A stretch of DNA of 64,000 bases from Pseudomonas sp. SDI. Its GTDB lineage: Bacteria; Pseudomonadota; Gammaproteobacteria; Pseudomonadales; Pseudomonadaceae. Below the pieces are notes generated by a model, which was given only the letters and a program-made list of their open reading frames with translations, was not told the origin of the DNA and made no database searches. The stretch is from positions 1 through 64,000 of the forward strand of contig NZ_QETK01000007.1 in assembly GCF_003105155.1 (NCBI RefSeq), given 5' to 3'. This document shows positions 3,309-45,091 of the stretch, one piece after another (position 1 is the stretch's first letter; the number at the start of each line of letters is the position of its first letter). The position numbers and the translations under genes are program-made.

Positions 3309-3339
3309 GACAAACGCCGGCGTGAGTGATCACGCCTGC

Positions 3340-3500
3340 TGCAAGATTGGGGTCCCTGCCTGGCGGGGGCTATCCAAGACCGTAGGCGGCGCAAGCCTTA
3401 AACCCTGAGCCTACGCAGATGGTGCTCCCGGTTCCTTACCGAATCAGACACCAAAACGACATCCGGCTTCGGCCAGATGAAACGGTAACAAGCAGGAGTT
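3340..3500 (+). promoter_or_regulatory. Ribosomal protein L10 leader (rplJ-rplL autoregulation)
   Basis: The 198 bases between rplA and rplJ have no reading frame of note. They contain purine/pyrimidine blocks able to pair over long range, such as GGCGGGGGC, the AGGCGGCGCAAGCCT hairpin and GGCTTCGGCC. Position and type match the known L10 leader, to which L10(L12)4 binds to repress translation. The boundaries are approximate; a covariance-model search would settle them. Confidence 0.6.
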
Positions 3501-3506
3501 TTACCC

Positions 3507-4007
3507 GTGGCAATTAAACTCGAAGACAAGAAGGCCATCGTCGCTGAAGTCAACGAGGCTGCCAAAGTCGCTCTGTCCGCTGTCGTGGCTGATGCCCGTG
3601 GTGTGACTGTAGGCGCAATGACCGGACTCCGTAAAGAGGCTCGTGAAGCTGGCGTTTACGTACGTGTTGTACGTAACACCCTGCTCAAGCGCGCTGTTGC
3701 TGATACTGAATTCAGTGTCCTCAACGACGCCTTCACTGGCCCTACCCTGATTGCATTCTCCAACGAGCACCCGGGCGCCGCCGCCCGTCTGTTCAAAGAG
3801 TTCGCCAAGGGTCAGGACAAGTTCGAGATCAAGGCAGCTGCGTTCGACGGCAAGTTCCTTGCCGCTAACGAAATCGACGTGTTGGCTACCCTGCCGACCC
3901 GCGACGAAGCTATCGCGAAACTGATGAGCGTGATCCAAGGCGCTACCAGCAAGCTGGCTCGTACTTTGGCAGCTATTCGCGACCAGAAAGAAGCTACCGC
4001 TGCCTAA
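3507..4007 (+). CDS. rplJ: 50S ribosomal protein L10
   Basis: L10 anchors L7/L12 dimers to the ribosomal stalk. The 166 residues begin [19 protein letters not shown] and include the conserved [11 protein letters not shown] segment near residue 53-63, which contacts rRNA. The C-terminal helix of about 30 residues binds L12. Translation starts at GTG 3507, with AGGAG about 11 bases upstream (3494-3498). The gene is preceded by the L10 leader and followed after 80 bases by rplL. Confidence 0.97.
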
Positions 4008-4453: not shown

Positions 4454-4500
4454 TTTCGACTTTGCGACTCCAGCCCGAGCGCTAAGCAAACGGCTGATGG

Positions 4501-4527
4501 CTGGTGGCTCTTGCCACCGGCCTTTTT
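4501..4527 (+). terminator. Attenuator-like hairpin between rplL and rpoB
   Basis: An 8-bp stem with one G-U pair (CTGGTGGC 4501-4508, GCCACCGG 4513-4520) closes a TCTT loop, then CC and TTTTT. This looks like a leaky intrinsic terminator that would lower rpoBC expression relative to the ribosomal genes upstream, as the rplL-rpoB attenuator does in E. coli. Confidence 0.65.
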
Positions 4528-13016: not shown

Positions 13017-13089
13017 GGCCCCGGCCACCTCAATCCGGTCGTCGGTGACATATTTTGTTGCCGACGGTCGGGAAGGGGAGGCTGGGGCC
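13017..13089 (+). other. Long imperfect hairpin between rpoC and rpsL
   Basis: Outer arms at 13017-13031 and 13078-13089 (GGCCCC.GCC..CTC against GAGGCTGGGGCC) enclose a second stem, CCGGTCGTCGG (13035-13045) with CCGACGGTCGG (13061-13071), with two mismatches. No T run follows. It ends six bases before the rpsL promoter and may be a processing or 3'-end protecting structure for the rpoBC mRNA. Confidence 0.45.
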
Positions 13090-13094
13090 TCGCC

Positions 13095-13123
13095 TTGACT
13101 GGGCGCAAGATCCTCTTTAGACT
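13095..13123 (+). promoter_or_regulatory. Candidate sigma70 promoter of the str operon (rpsL)
   Basis: TTGACT at 13095-13100 and TAGACT at 13118-13123 lie 17 bases apart, about 92 bases before the rpsL ATG. The match to consensus is good (5/6 and 4/6) and the position fits a dedicated str-operon promoter, as expected since rpoBC and rpsL are separated here by only 204 bases. Confidence 0.6.
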
Positions 13124-13214
13124 CTTGTACCCCTAAATTTGGTGGGACTCTGTCCTGCCATTTTTGCTTTTCTTGCAAGACAATAGCGTCGCAAGACAAC
13201 AGTGGAGCTAGTAG

Positions 13215-13586
13215 ATGGCAACTATCAACCAGCTGGTACGTCAGCCGCGTAAGCGTATCGTCGAGAAATCCGACGTTCCTGCGCTGCAGAACTGCCCGCA
13301 ACGTCGTGGCGTGTGCACCCGTGTGTACACCACCACGCCGAAAAAACCTAACTCGGCACTGCGTAAAGTATGCCGTGTGCGTCTGACCAACGGTTTCGAG
13401 GTTTCCTCGTACATCGGCGGTGAAGGCCACAACCTGCAAGAGCACAGCGTGGTACTGATCCGCGGCGGTCGTGTAAAAGACTTGCCGGGTGTTCGTTACC
13501 ACACCGTTCGCGGTTCCCTGGATACTTCCGGCGTTAAAGGTCGTAACCAAGGCCGTTCGAAGTACGGTACCAAGCGTCCGAAGTAA
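13215..13586 (+). CDS. rpsL: 30S ribosomal protein S12
   Basis: S12 of the decoding centre. The 123-residue protein contains the conserved [18 protein letters not shown] block. Lysines 43 and 88, the usual positions of streptomycin-resistance changes, are wild type here ([18 protein letters not shown]). It is the first gene of the str operon, with its own promoter at 13095-13123; rpsG follows after 119 bases. Confidence 0.98.
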
Positions 13587-28470: not shown

Positions 28471-28497
28471 GATTATTTGTTTCTACAGCGATATTAT
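28469..28497 (+). promoter_or_regulatory. Candidate promoter of the alpha operon (rpsM)
   Basis: TTGATT (28469-28474), a 17-base spacer, and TATTAT (28492-28497), with an expected start near 28504 and a 53-base leader before rpsM. The -35 overlaps the 3' end of the rpmJ terminator stem, as at the rpsN/rpsH junction. Confidence 0.6.
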
Positions 28498-28556
28498 CTC
28501 GCGCCCTATTTCTTGGCTTCCGGGGCGTAGGTAGCTGTCAATTGGAGTCCCACTGA

Positions 28557-28913
28557 ATGGCCCGTATTGCAGGCGTCAACATTCCAGATAACAAGCACAC
28601 TGTTATCTCGCTGACCTACATCTATGGTGTTGGTCGCACTACTGCGCAGAGCATCTGTGCAGTGACTGGGGTCAACCCAGCCGCAAAGATCAAGGATCTG
28701 AGCGACGAGCAGGTTGAATCGCTGCGTACTGAAGTTGCGAAGTACATCACCGAAGGTGATCTGCGCCGTGACATCAACATGAAAATCAAGCGGTTGATGG
28801 ACCTGGGTTGCTACCGCGGCCTGCGTCATCGTCGGGGTCTGCCAGTACGCGGTCAGCGTACCAAGACCAACGCGCGTACCCGTAAAGGTCCGCGTAAGCC
28901 GATCCGCAAGTAA
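28557..28913 (+). CDS. rpsM: 30S ribosomal protein S13
   Basis: S13 contacts P-site tRNA and forms bridges to the 50S. The 118 residues begin [28 protein letters not shown] and end with the basic tail [25 protein letters not shown]. First gene of the alpha operon (rpsM-rpsK-rpsD-rpoA-rplQ). The 131-base gap from rpmJ holds a terminator and a promoter. Confidence 0.97.
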
Positions 28914-42215: not shown

Positions 42216-43055
42216 TCAGCCGAGGATGAATTCAGCCACTGTCTGCGCCACCTGATCGGCGACTGCTGGCGTGTTGCGCAGGTGGGCGGCGATGCCATGG
42301 TCGCAGTCGGCGAGCAGCAGGCACTCCAGGTGTGGCGGCGGCACCGCAGCGAGCAGGCTGCGTGTGACCTCCTCGGGGATCGGGCTGTAGCGTTGCGCAC
42401 CGGCCAGCCACAAGGTGCCGGCCGAGCGGCCTTCGCCCTGGCCGTGAGTCCGCGAGTTGAGCCCGTCGTACTCGCCCATCACCAGCAACACCCGGCCGGA
42501 GAACTGGCGCAAAAATTCAAAACTGTCGCAATCGAGAAAGCCGTAGGGCTTGCTGATTGCCGCCGTAAAGGCCGGGCCGAACGGTGCGTCGTGGGCGTCG
42601 TCCGGGTACACCGCCGGGCAGATCAGTACCAGCTTGTCGATGGCCGGGGTCTGCGCTGCCAGTTTCAGCGCGATGGCCGCGCCCAGGCTGTGCCCGACCA
42701 GCGTTTTGCACTGCGCGGCGATATGCCGGTGAAAGCGCTTGGCTTCGGCCAGGTTGGTATTCAGCGACGGTGCTGGCGCGCCCGGTTCGCTGGCGCGGCT
42801 GTGCCCGGACAGGTTGCCGGTCAGCGAGCCGATGCCGCGCTGTTGCAGGCGATAGAGCAGGGGGCTCAAACGAGTGAAATCGGAGCGTGCGCCGCCGACC
42901 ACAAACAGCGGTGGCGCACGTTCCGTGTCGGGCAACAGCAGGCGTGCCTGCTGTTGATAACTGCCGAAGTCTTCGCTGACAAAGCGCTCCATGCCGGGAG
43001 CGGGTTCGTCGTATTGCCAGGTGTCGCGTTGGGTCGAGGTCGCTTCGGGGAGCAT
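42216..43055 (-). CDS. Alpha/beta hydrolase
   Basis: 279 residues from ATG 43055; an in-frame GTG at 43061 lies too close to the AGGCGG Shine-Dalgarno. A serine hydrolase triad can be read: Ser123 in GHSLGAA, Asp197 in GEYDGLN, and His253 in DCDHGIAAH. No signal peptide is present. The gene starts nine bases after the stop of the TauE-like permease and is likely in an operon with it and with the upstream oxygenase. The substrate is unknown. Confidence 0.8.
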   Translation of the reverse strand: MLPEATSTQRDTWQYDEPAPGMERFVSEDFGSYQQQARLLLPDTERAPPLFVVGGARSDFTRLSPLLYRLQQRGIGSLTGNLSGHSRASEPGAPAPSLNTNLAEAKRFHRHIAAQCKTLVGHSLGAAIALKLAAQTPAIDKLVLICPAVYPDDAHDAPFGPAFTAAISKPYGFLDCDSFEFLRQFSGRVLLVMGEYDGLNSRTHGQGEGRSAGTLWLAGAQRYSPIPEEVTRSLLAAVPPPHLECLLLADCDHGIAAHLRNTPAVADQVAQTVAEFILG

Positions 43056-43064
43056 GAACACCGC

Positions 43065-43859
43065 CTAGAGGAACTGATGATGCAGCCATTCGCCAAGTGG
43101 ATTGCCGGCGCTGAGCAGCAGCTTGAGCGCCATGATGCAGCAGACGCAGACCAGCAACGGCTTGATCAGTTTAGGGCCGAAATGCACCGCGCAGCGAGCC
43201 CCGAGTTGTGCACCGACAAACGCTGCTGCGGCCATCGCCAGCGCCAGCGGCCAGACGATGGCGCCGCTCAGGGCGAACACCGACAGCGCCCCAAGGTTGC
43301 ATGAGGCATTCAGCAGCTTGGCGTTGCACACCGCACGCAGCAGTGTCTGTCCGAGCAGGATGACGCAGGCGACCATGAAGAACGAGCCCACGCCTGGGCC
43401 GAAGATGCCGTCATAGAAGCCGATCAGCGGCGCCACGGCCAGGCAGAACAGGCTGACCGAGATTTTCGCCTTGCGCGCGTGCTCGTCCGGCTTGGGGCTG
43501 AAGGCGAAGTAGGCCGCCACCAGGATCAGCAGCACCGGCACACAGGCCTGCAGGAATTCCTTTGGTATCAGGCTGACCGACAACGCCCCGAGGGCGCCCC
43601 CGGCAAACGCCATGGCGGCCATTGGCAAGCCGTTCTGCCAGTCGATCATGCCCTTGCGGGCGAAGGCATAGGTGGCCGAGACCGTGGCCGAGGCGGCCTG
43701 GAACTTGTTGGTGGCGATGGCGGCCAACGGGTCGATGCCGGCGACGAACAGCACTGGCAGGGTGATCAGCCCACCGCCGCCAGCGATGGCGTCGAAAAAA
43801 CCGGCCATCAGGGCCACCGACGCCAGGGTCAGCAACAACGTGATATCAATTTCCATCAT
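43065..43859 (-). CDS. TauE/SafE (YfcA-type) sulfite/organic-anion exporter family permease
   Basis: The 264 residues form about eight hydrophobic segments. The duplicated family motifs are FDAIAGGGGLITLPVLFVAGIDPLAAIATNK in the first half and FYDGIFGPGVGSFF in the second. Members export or import sulfur-containing or other organic anions, but the substrate varies. An AAGGA Shine-Dalgarno is found about eight bases before the start at 43859; ATG 43856 is an alternative. It lies between the oxygenase (18 bases upstream) and the hydrolase in a tight minus-strand cluster. Confidence 0.85.
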   Translation of the reverse strand: MMEIDITLLLTLASVALMAGFFDAIAGGGGLITLPVLFVAGIDPLAAIATNKFQAASATVSATYAFARKGMIDWQNGLPMAAMAFAGGALGALSVSLIPKEFLQACVPVLLILVAAYFAFSPKPDEHARKAKISVSLFCLAVAPLIGFYDGIFGPGVGSFFMVACVILLGQTLLRAVCNAKLLNASCNLGALSVFALSGAIVWPLALAMAAAAFVGAQLGARCAVHFGPKLIKPLLVCVCCIMALKLLLSAGNPLGEWLHHQFL

Positions 43860-43877
43860 CGGGAGGGGTCCTTGTGG

Positions 43878-44921
43878 TCAGCCGCGTACCAGCAGCGGGT
43901 CTTCGCTGAGTACCGCCGGTTGGGCGAAGCGTGAATAGCCGAACAGGCGCACCAGCAGGCGACGGTTGTCCTGGAGAATGTCGCGGCCATGCAGGGCGCG
44001 GCTGTTGTTGATCAGCAGCGCGTTGTCGGGCTGCAACACAAAGGGCAGCGCTTCGCTCTCGCCGAGCAAGGCCTGGAACGCATCGAAAGCGCGCCCGGCG
44101 GCTTCGCTGGCGTGATCGTTGAGCGAGAAGCGGTAGGCGTTGTAGCGCATGGCAAAGCCGCCGTCGGGATCGAACTGCAGCATCGAAGTGGCCTTGCCGG
44201 CCTCACCCTGGCCGGCGACGAAGCAGTCACTGCGGGTGAAGTCGAAGGACGCCGAGGTCAGCGCCAGGGCATGCAGGCTGCCGAGTTTTTCGATGACCGG
44301 GCGCAGCGGGATGATTCGCGTTGGCTCATTGGCCGGGTTCCAGCGCGCACTGAGGATCAGTGCCGACGGTGCCGGCGAGCGGCCCTCGCGGGCTTGCACC
44401 GAGCAGTTGTAGGGCGCCTCGGTGTGCGGCCCCAGGCGCAGGCCGGCATGTGAGCTGAGCTCGATGCGGCTAGTGGGGTCTTCGCCAGGGCGCAGTACGC
44501 TGCCGCCGCCCTTGAAGTTACCGACCAGACGCACCACCTGGCCTTCGTTATCGATGTCGAAGGCGAAGGCGCGGTAGTGCACCAGCTCCAGCAGCAACTG
44601 GTTGCGCGAGGCCAGGTACAGGCAGCGCTCGCTCTGTGTCAGGGTGGGCAAGTCGGGGAGCAGTGCGGGGGCCGGATCGCTGCCGGGGCAGGTCATCTGC
44701 GTGCACATCAGTGCCGCCAGCCTGCCATCGGCGAAGTGCTGCAACGCGGCCTGTTGGCTGGCATCGAGGGTTGGCTGGATGCGCTGTGCCCACTGGCGGG
44801 CCAGGGCGGCGACTCCGCGGGCCTGGGGGCCGCCGAGCTCGGCGAGGTTCTGGCTGGCGGCCGCCAGCGTGCGGGCCTGGTCCTGGTCGAAACTCAGGTA
44901 CGCGACTTCCGATTCCTGCAT
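43878..44921 (-). CDS. Fe(II)/2-oxoglutarate oxygenase, TauD/clavaminate synthase-like
   Basis: Non-haem iron oxygenase. I choose ATG 44921 (MQESEVAYLSFDQ, 347 residues), because an AAGGA Shine-Dalgarno lies nine bases upstream; the ATG at 44930 touches that site. In the frame from 44930, the metal ligands read H169-x-E171 (LGPHTEAPYN) and H314 (NSRALHGRD), with R328 (RRLLVRLFG) as the likely 2-oxoglutarate anchor. The H-x-E rather than H-x-D motif is typical of the clavaminate synthase and amino-acid hydroxylase branch. The substrate is unknown; amino acids or derivatives are plausible. It leads a cluster with a permease and hydrolase. Confidence 0.75.
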   Translation of the reverse strand: MQESEVAYLSFDQDQARTLAAASQNLAELGGPQARGVAALARQWAQRIQPTLDASQQAALQHFADGRLAALMCTQMTCPGSDPAPALLPDLPTLTQSERCLYLASRNQLLLELVHYRAFAFDIDNEGQVVRLVGNFKGGGSVLRPGEDPTSRIELSSHAGLRLGPHTEAPYNCSVQAREGRSPAPSALILSARWNPANEPTRIIPLRPVIEKLGSLHALALTSASFDFTRSDCFVAGQGEAGKATSMLQFDPDGGFAMRYNAYRFSLNDHASEAAGRAFDAFQALLGESEALPFVLQPDNALLINNSRALHGRDILQDNRRLLVRLFGYSRFAQPAVLSEDPLLVRG

Positions 44922-45062: not shown

Positions 45063-45091
45063 AGTATAGGCAGTTTCCTATTTTGTGTAAG
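45063..45091 (-). promoter_or_regulatory. Tentative promoter and inverted repeat upstream of the oxygenase gene
   Basis: On the minus strand CTTACA (45091-45086) and TATACT (45068-45063) are 17 bases apart. The spacer holds an inverted repeat, ATAGG (45066-45070) and CCTAT (45077-45081) on the plus strand, which could be an operator. The rest of the 295-base gap 44922-45216 shows no gene. Confidence 0.3.

Follow-up and report, generated by a model that had tools for sequence, protein, structure and literature searches.

What do an oxygenase, a permease and a hydrolase accomplish together when their genes lie almost end to end on one strand? The question is raised by a locus of Pseudomonas sp. 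SDI, situated in the window analysed here, a stretch of 64,000 nucleotides (assembly GCF_003105155.1, contig NZ_QETK01000007.1, positions 1 to 64,000). We refer to the oxygenase gene and its protein as OXY, to the adjoining permease as TauE and to the hydrolase as HYD. A preliminary description of this DNA had proposed that the three could hydroxylate, export and hydrolyse a small molecule, perhaps an amino acid or sulfonate derivative. All three are open reading frames on the minus strand, within 42216-44921: OXY at 43878..44921 (347 amino acids), TauE at 43065..43859 (264 amino acids) and HYD at 42216..43061 if it starts at a GTG (281 amino acids) or 42216..43055 if it starts at the next ATG (279 amino acids). 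OXY starts at an ATG behind AAGGAATG, with an alternative open start 9 bases further up. The gaps, 18 bases between OXY and TauE and 9 bases between TauE and the ATG of HYD (3 bases if the GTG is used), are those given in the preliminary description. As set out below, OXY and TauE are a horizontally moving pair found mostly in Pseudomonas, and the gene set is real and conserved.

OXY and TauE move as a unit

Two short conserved peptide patterns, used to scan the species genomes of GTDB, retrieved 93 relatives of OXY, of which 80 were kept as loci. A TauE segment of at least 85% of the length was found with OXY in 76 of these, the exceptions being L120, in which TauE is split, L090, which has a TauE fragment, and two Myxococcaceae loci without TauE. 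Where both proteins are in one piece (73 loci), the genes are 7-286 bases apart, and in Neisseria dentiae the order is HYD-OXY-TauE. We also took 40 regions from Pseudomonas genomes, 31 of which hold an intact OXY; TauE lies beside it in all 31 and HYD in 10. Chance neighbourhood was considered and rejected, because 76 of the 80 loci are partnered, against eight TauE-family genes in total in the genome of strain SDI. The preliminary description had named random co-occurrence in other genomes as the outcome that would speak against it, and this is not the pattern that emerged.

The proteins also share their evolutionary distances. Correlation between the distances of OXY and TauE was r = 0.96 over 73 loci and between those of OXY and HYD r = 0.91 over 26 loci (2000 permutations each, p at the floor of 0.0005); for OXY and rmlD it was 0.42 over 30 loci. 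A shared-site comparison used the 26 loci that occupy the chromosomal site of the window and have all flanking genes. Here OXY and TauE correlated at 0.88, while OXY set against rmlD, the helix-turn-helix (HTH) gene, the AGCS symporter gene and ansA gave 0.05-0.18; these four flanking genes gave 0.69-0.86 among themselves. Because the pair shares its distances while OXY hardly tracks its neighbours at the site, we conclude that OXY-TauE moves as a unit. In the 12 of these loci that have HYD, the values were 0.84 for OXY-HYD, 0.68 for TauE-HYD, 0.12-0.48 for OXY against the flanks and 0.25-0.58 for HYD against the flanks, which makes HYD a less clear case as a co-moving member.

The OXY tree, built from 79 rows with two split copies omitted, places sequences of Photorhabdus, Paracidovorax and Herbaspirillum and one Burkholderiales sequence in one clade with 32 Pseudomonas copies (support 100/99), and the OXY of the window in a separate group of 35 rows (support 93/78). 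The placement of Neisseria and Acinetobacter hangs on long branches. At a second Pseudomonas site the adjoining genes encode AsmA, MutY-like and Fe(2+) trafficking proteins (L056). Of the 19 loci in the neighbourhood clustering, 15 also have a different alpha/beta hydrolase (about 324 amino acids) at this site, at a distance of 2-3 kb; it is probably just a neighbour there.

The HTH gene, the AGCS symporter gene and ansA were considered as further parts of the cassette and rejected: they remain in 18 genomes without OXY, lack a counterpart in the regions retrieved around the second Pseudomonas site, and show distances unlike those of OXY. A link to asparagine through ansA was dropped on the same evidence.

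Distribution of the pair

A sample of 298 Pseudomonas genomes, which overlaps the GTDB scan so that some genomes are in both, gave OXY matches in 71: 37 with an intact copy, 12 with broken or partial copies only, one cut by a contig end and 21 with distant relatives (24-32% identity). The division into intact and broken copies is our reading of the table, and some of the broken ones may be sequencing errors or contig ends. Six of the 37 genomes with intact OXY, that of the window and five others, lie outside the 40 regions mentioned above. In one of the 12 decayed copies (L196:7255-7623) a frame of 122 amino acids joins both ends of an OXY-like protein, the middle being missing.

Outside Pseudomonas, OXY is rare. 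The hosts in the GTDB scan were Pseudomonas, Photorhabdus, Paracidovorax, Herbaspirillum, Serratia, Neisseria, Acinetobacter, Burkholderiales and Myxococcaceae. Besides strain SDI itself, 194 genomes of the order yielded two distant relatives only, one of them in Pseudomonas, and 299 genomes of the phylum yielded no match. In the family of the Corallococcus locus L145, OXY was present in 2 of 96 genomes, both already known from the GTDB scan, together with 14 weaker matches; in the family of the Paracidovorax locus L110, the single genome out of 299 matched at E 1e-20 was that of L110. Three loci recorded under other names (L087 as Pantoea sp. Cy-639, L132 as Pantoea sp. Ap-967 and L090 as Paucimonas sp. 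Fux382_bin17) have the flanking genes of the Pseudomonas site, with 90-95% identity to the window in rmlD, 89-92% in the AGCS symporter and 78-80% in ansA, and for this reason are probably mislabelled Pseudomonas.

OXY as a predicted distant member of the clavaminate synthase-like oxygenases

The preliminary description had called OXY a clavaminate synthase-like (CSL) Fe(II)/2-oxoglutarate oxygenase and suggested comparing its predicted structure with AsnO, VioC and clavaminate synthase. We modelled OXY from 38 diverse homologues, with a mean predicted local distance difference test score (pLDDT) of 87.8; an earlier AlphaFold model, made from a less diverse alignment, was poor over residues 136-182. 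When the new model was compared with the PDB by VIA-align, the top 43 of the best 50 matches listed were all CSL enzymes (Z 26.5-30.7 over 296-313 residues), and the next group among those 50 was GlaH/CsiD at Z 20.6. The model scored Z 30.7 with CmnC, 30.0 with VioC, 28.6 with NapI, KDO1 and OrfP, 28.1 with AsnO and 27.6 with clavaminate synthase, a comparison at the level of the fold. The best 50 rows from Foldseek agree with this assignment. TauD is not among the best 50 structure matches listed, an absence that by itself shows nothing.

Direct sequence searches of the PDB were weak (best E 0.79 for OXY alone and 0.065 for OXY profiles), and a two-step profile link leads to the same enzymes. 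By hhalign, the OXY profile matched a set of nine distant relatives with a probability of 99.7 and E 2.4e-25 over 279 columns. The profile of these nine in turn matched NapI (7e-40), KDO1 (9e-34), AsnO (2e-32), VioC (1e-28), clavaminate synthase, OrfP and CmnC, all within E 7e-40 to 2e-27. In Pfam, OXY matched TauD only, at 24.9 bits and under the cut-off of 27; PF13640 and PF10014 were not among its matches at E 0.01. Fold prediction and profiles together place OXY in a sequence-distant subfamily of the CSL oxygenases, nearest to the amino-acid hydroxylases. What is new here is the CSL subfamily and the operon type; the general kind is already known.

The iron-binding H-x-E...H motif noted earlier in OXY is invariant in the 38 aligned OXY rows: H166 and E168 (codons H166-T167-E168 at 44418..44426, minus strand) and H311 (codon at 43989..43991, minus strand) are each present in 38/38. 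The pocket was read through alignments, its columns being mapped from the CmnC residues in PMC9513391 and from the CSL survey in PMC6224419 and counted in the same 38 rows; VioC numbers were counted along the printed alignment, and its chain numbers agree with those of PMC9513391. Further on from H311, R321 (position P18) and R325 (P19), each in 38/38 rows, form an R-x-L-x-R stretch aligned with the CSL enzymes, in which the survey text has the P18 arginine bind 2-oxoglutarate and the P19 arginine the substrate carboxylate (PMC6224419). Residue 124 (P2), the position expected to hold the alpha-amine, is acidic throughout but mostly Asp (Asp in 34 rows, Glu in 4); in most CSL groups of the survey P2 is Gln or Glu (PMC6224419). 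S157, equivalent to VioC S158, is present in 38/38 rows and T201 in 37/38. The DXXD sub-pocket, Asp at P12 and P15, is tied in the survey to basic side chains (PMC6224419); its aspartates are absent from all 38 OXY rows, which have Ser (36) or Pro (2) at P12 and Asn (33) or Ser (5) at P15. P16 is Tyr in 37/38 rows, R264 is present in 38/38 and R230 in 35/38. A positively charged pocket with Tyr at P16 is given for CSL group G6, for which acidic substrates are suggested (PMC6224419). Because the residues for the alpha-amine and carboxylate are kept and the aspartates for a basic side chain are lost, we infer a free amino acid as substrate, its side chain being either acidic or neutral, in the latter case polar or hydrophobic. 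Of the two substrate classes first suggested, the amino acid is supported by these pocket residues.

The permease and the optional hydrolase

The family assignments made earlier for the other two genes also stand. TauE matches PF01925 (TauE/SafE, TSUP) at 175.6 bits (cut-off 32.6), and HYD matches Abhydrolase_6 at 45.2 bits (cut-off 26.3). S125, D199 and H255 of HYD are invariant in 14/14 aligned rows and, judging from motifs, probably form a Ser-Asp-His triad. A PDB search with HYD gave four weakly matched hydrolases, the best being 3llc, a putative hydrolase; with the permease profile the same kind of search gave no match at E 0.01.

HYD had been presented as a member of the set, but it is not a fixed one, being present at 85% coverage in 28 of the 80 loci. 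Among the 298 Pseudomonas genomes, orthologues (E 1e-30 or better) occur in 36: 15 with intact OXY, three with broken OXY and 18 with none. The association of HYD with intact OXY gives a Fisher p of 1.5e-6, a value that does not allow for kinship. In the 18 genomes without OXY (L153-L170), HYD keeps its place between the HTH gene and rmlD; one of them (L164) has an intact permease and two have permease fragments. The presence of HYD in both Pseudomonas groups, in Paracidovorax and in Neisseria suggests an old trio with separate losses. Since the pair is often found without HYD, and HYD is often found without OXY, the hydrolase is hard to explain either as an obligatory step or as simple immunity.

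Function of the cassette

We propose that the substrate of OXY is a free L-amino acid whose side chain is neutral or acidic, which leaves out arginine and lysine, and that the reaction is an oxidation, most likely a hydroxylation; that the adjoining TauE-family permease most likely exports the product; that HYD may be an accessory serine hydrolase acting, in some hosts only, on the product, a precursor or a conjugate; and that the whole would be a specialised-metabolite cassette that moves horizontally and is organised like the IDO and Hil operons. As a single reading this seems to us probable, if by a modest measure. Several points weigh against it. P13 is Asp or Glu in 36/38 rows, and the Asn seen at P15 recurs in CSL group G4, for which the survey suggests hydrophobic substrates (PMC6224419); OXY fits neither the G4 nor the G6 motif in full. 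The pocket is read from alignments, and the lid is the least certain part of the model: over residues 231-240, where P12-P14 are situated, pLDDT averages 48. HYD is absent from 52 of the 80 loci, stands alone in 18 of the 298 genomes and fits no simple role. The TSUP family includes sulfite and sulfoacetate exporters (PMC11535334), and export is here an assumption, because one member takes up sulfate (PMC11535334) and another, KbuT, is needed to use ketobutyrate (PMC12671195).

These two transporters are also the precedent for the main rival explanation, import and breakdown, in which the TSUP permease would import a compound resembling an amino acid, derived from plants, insects or competitors, for OXY to oxidise and HYD to help degrade, whether for scavenging or detoxification. 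Patchy presence and decay (12 broken against 37 intact OXY copies) fit such a niche-tied trait, and the retention of HYD alone in 18 genomes fits a stand-alone enzyme. One locus, which also counts against our own proposal, has the surroundings that import would predict: in Herbaspirillum (L105:3609-12653) the strand of OXY carries, upstream of it, an amino-acid-type uptake set (a family-3 solute-binding protein and an ABC permease-ATPase) together with genes for a class II aldolase and a 2-hydroxyacid dehydrogenase; downstream on the other strand are two amidase-type genes, for an acetamidase/formamidase and a carbon-nitrogen hydrolase. Such uptake and catabolic genes are, however, not recurrent: the 19 clustered loci share only the AsmA, MutY-like and Fe(2+) trafficking neighbours of the second site, the other sites being partly typed, and the partners of OXY in two Myxococcaceae, an ATP-grasp-like protein and an MFS carrier, look biosynthetic. 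We regard import and breakdown as possible and rather unlikely.

Much less credence can be given to sulfonate desulfonation, in which OXY would act like TauD to free sulfite and TauE would export it. The weak TauD match and the invariant R264, which could hold an anion, are in its favour, but that match falls under its cut-off, the nearest structures among those listed are amino-acid hydroxylases (Z at least 26.5) and OXY keeps the residues for an alpha-amine and an alpha-carboxylate; the sulfonate option of the preliminary description is weak on these grounds. AsnO serves a peptide antibiotic, and OXY could likewise supply its hydroxylated product as a building block for a peptide synthetase encoded at another locus, in siderophore or lipopeptide synthesis, with the permease only loosely related to that task. 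CmnC and VioC do serve peptide antibiotics, capreomycin and viomycin (described in PMC9513391). Nevertheless, the linkage of OXY with TauE is near complete, and none of eight long frames typed near OXY or its distant relatives is a synthetase (they encode an AAA and PLD-like protein, a nitrate reductase subunit, UvrA, AsmA and two UvrD-like helicases, and two have no family), a genome-wide synthetase search not having been made; we find this supply role highly improbable.

A bolder form of our proposal, which we advance as speculation and think doubtful, is that a two-gene mobile unit makes and secretes an antimetabolite or signal in one enzymatic step. OXY would oxidise one common free amino acid, neutral or acidic in its side chain, the TSUP permease would export the product, a role undescribed for the family in the literature searched, and HYD would be a detachable processing or self-protection gene kept by some lineages after loss of the producer.

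CSL oxygenases are selective catalysts of C-H oxidation, and several belong to pathways for amino-acid-derived antibiotics. The sequence-distant subfamily described here, whose predicted pocket is non-basic and whose genes keep the same permease partner in several bacterial classes, is a candidate enzyme with a likely new substrate, and its permease a candidate for a likely new TSUP cargo. The unit is so small, at two or three genes, that comparing the metabolites of a single expression strain could be enough to identify the product, and it would illustrate how compact a transferable specialised-metabolite unit can be.

Promoter, surroundings and distant relatives

A single promoter-like site may head OXY-TauE-HYD. 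It is a sigma-70-like sequence upstream of OXY (CTTACA-17-TATACT, 45063..45091, minus strand, 9/12 matches), in a region with two promoter-like sites against 0.2 in shuffles; in the alignment of upstream regions only the closest relatives retain it, L073 and L074 fully and L075 in part, whereas six other relatives lack it. Downstream, the convergent HTH gene ends 6 bases from HYD and is followed by the AGCS symporter gene and ansA. A plasmid search gave no match. The five Rfam matches in the window are ordinary and all outside the trio, among them the Pseudomonas RNAs P27 and P26, the rpsL leader and the alpha-operon binding site (3318-3507, 4458-4523, 13080-13215 and 28494-28589).

In four loci (L190:1701-7407, L192:1889-7393, L194:1505-7044 and L195:1959-7472), three of them in Pseudomonas and the fourth in a different genome of the order, distant CSL-type oxygenases with H-x-D replacing H-x-E lie divergent to a gene pair. 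The pair consists of a frame of about 350-410 amino acids (no Pfam family in the one tested) and a frame of about 1100 amino acids, in two tested cases a UvrD-like helicase with an IrrE-type peptidase domain. An oxygenase beside a UvrD-like helicase is unexpected and may belong to a separate system.

Comparison with known systems

OXY shares with the CSL hydroxylases (CmnC, VioC, NapI, OrfP, KDO1, KDO5, AsnO and clavaminate synthase) the fold, the H-x-E...H triad, the arginines at P18 and P19, an acid at P2 (although mostly Asp in OXY), the serine at VioC S158 and the threonine for 2-oxoglutarate. It differs from them in having at most 20% identity in the structure alignments listed, a TSUP permease as partner, Ser/Pro and Asn/Ser in place of the Asp residues of enzymes with basic substrates, Tyr at P16 (37/38) and an invariant Arg264. 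With TauD and TauE of sulfonate metabolism the trio has the permease family in common and, distantly, the fold class of the oxygenase, but OXY falls below the TauD cut-off and carries the CSL residues for binding an amino acid. KbuT and the other characterised TSUP permeases are of the same family as the TauE described here; KbuT, however, sits in a methylcitrate-cycle cluster in the account of PMC12671195.

The closest plan is that of the IDO, Hil and Bac operons, whose enzymes modify free amino acids for subsequent export, in some cases with a ligation in between; this is in part a proposal of the paper that describes them (PMC3684760). Their proteins are different from those of OXY-TauE: the oxygenases are of PF13640 or PF10014 (Bac uses other enzymes), and in the text of that paper the exporters are RhtA, an MFS carrier or BacE, not TSUP. 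As to the claim that no described pathway has exactly this set, the open-licence literature searched gave no paper combining clavaminate synthase with a sulfite exporter, and none of the titles listed named a CSL oxygenase-TSUP pair; in its plan, which these operons share with other proteins, the set is less isolated than that claim suggests. In the two myxobacterial loci (L145:4615-8960 in Corallococcus and L151:2236-6692 in Myxococcaceae) OXY is followed on one strand, with short gaps, by genes for a Glyoxalase_3 protein, a protein resembling ATP-grasp enzymes (its CP_ATPgrasp_2 match is weak and below the cut-off) and an MFS carrier. This cluster may make a dipeptide-like compound, and its OXY, ATP-grasp-like and MFS set resembles the HilD/HilE plan with a ligase, as outlined in PMC3684760.

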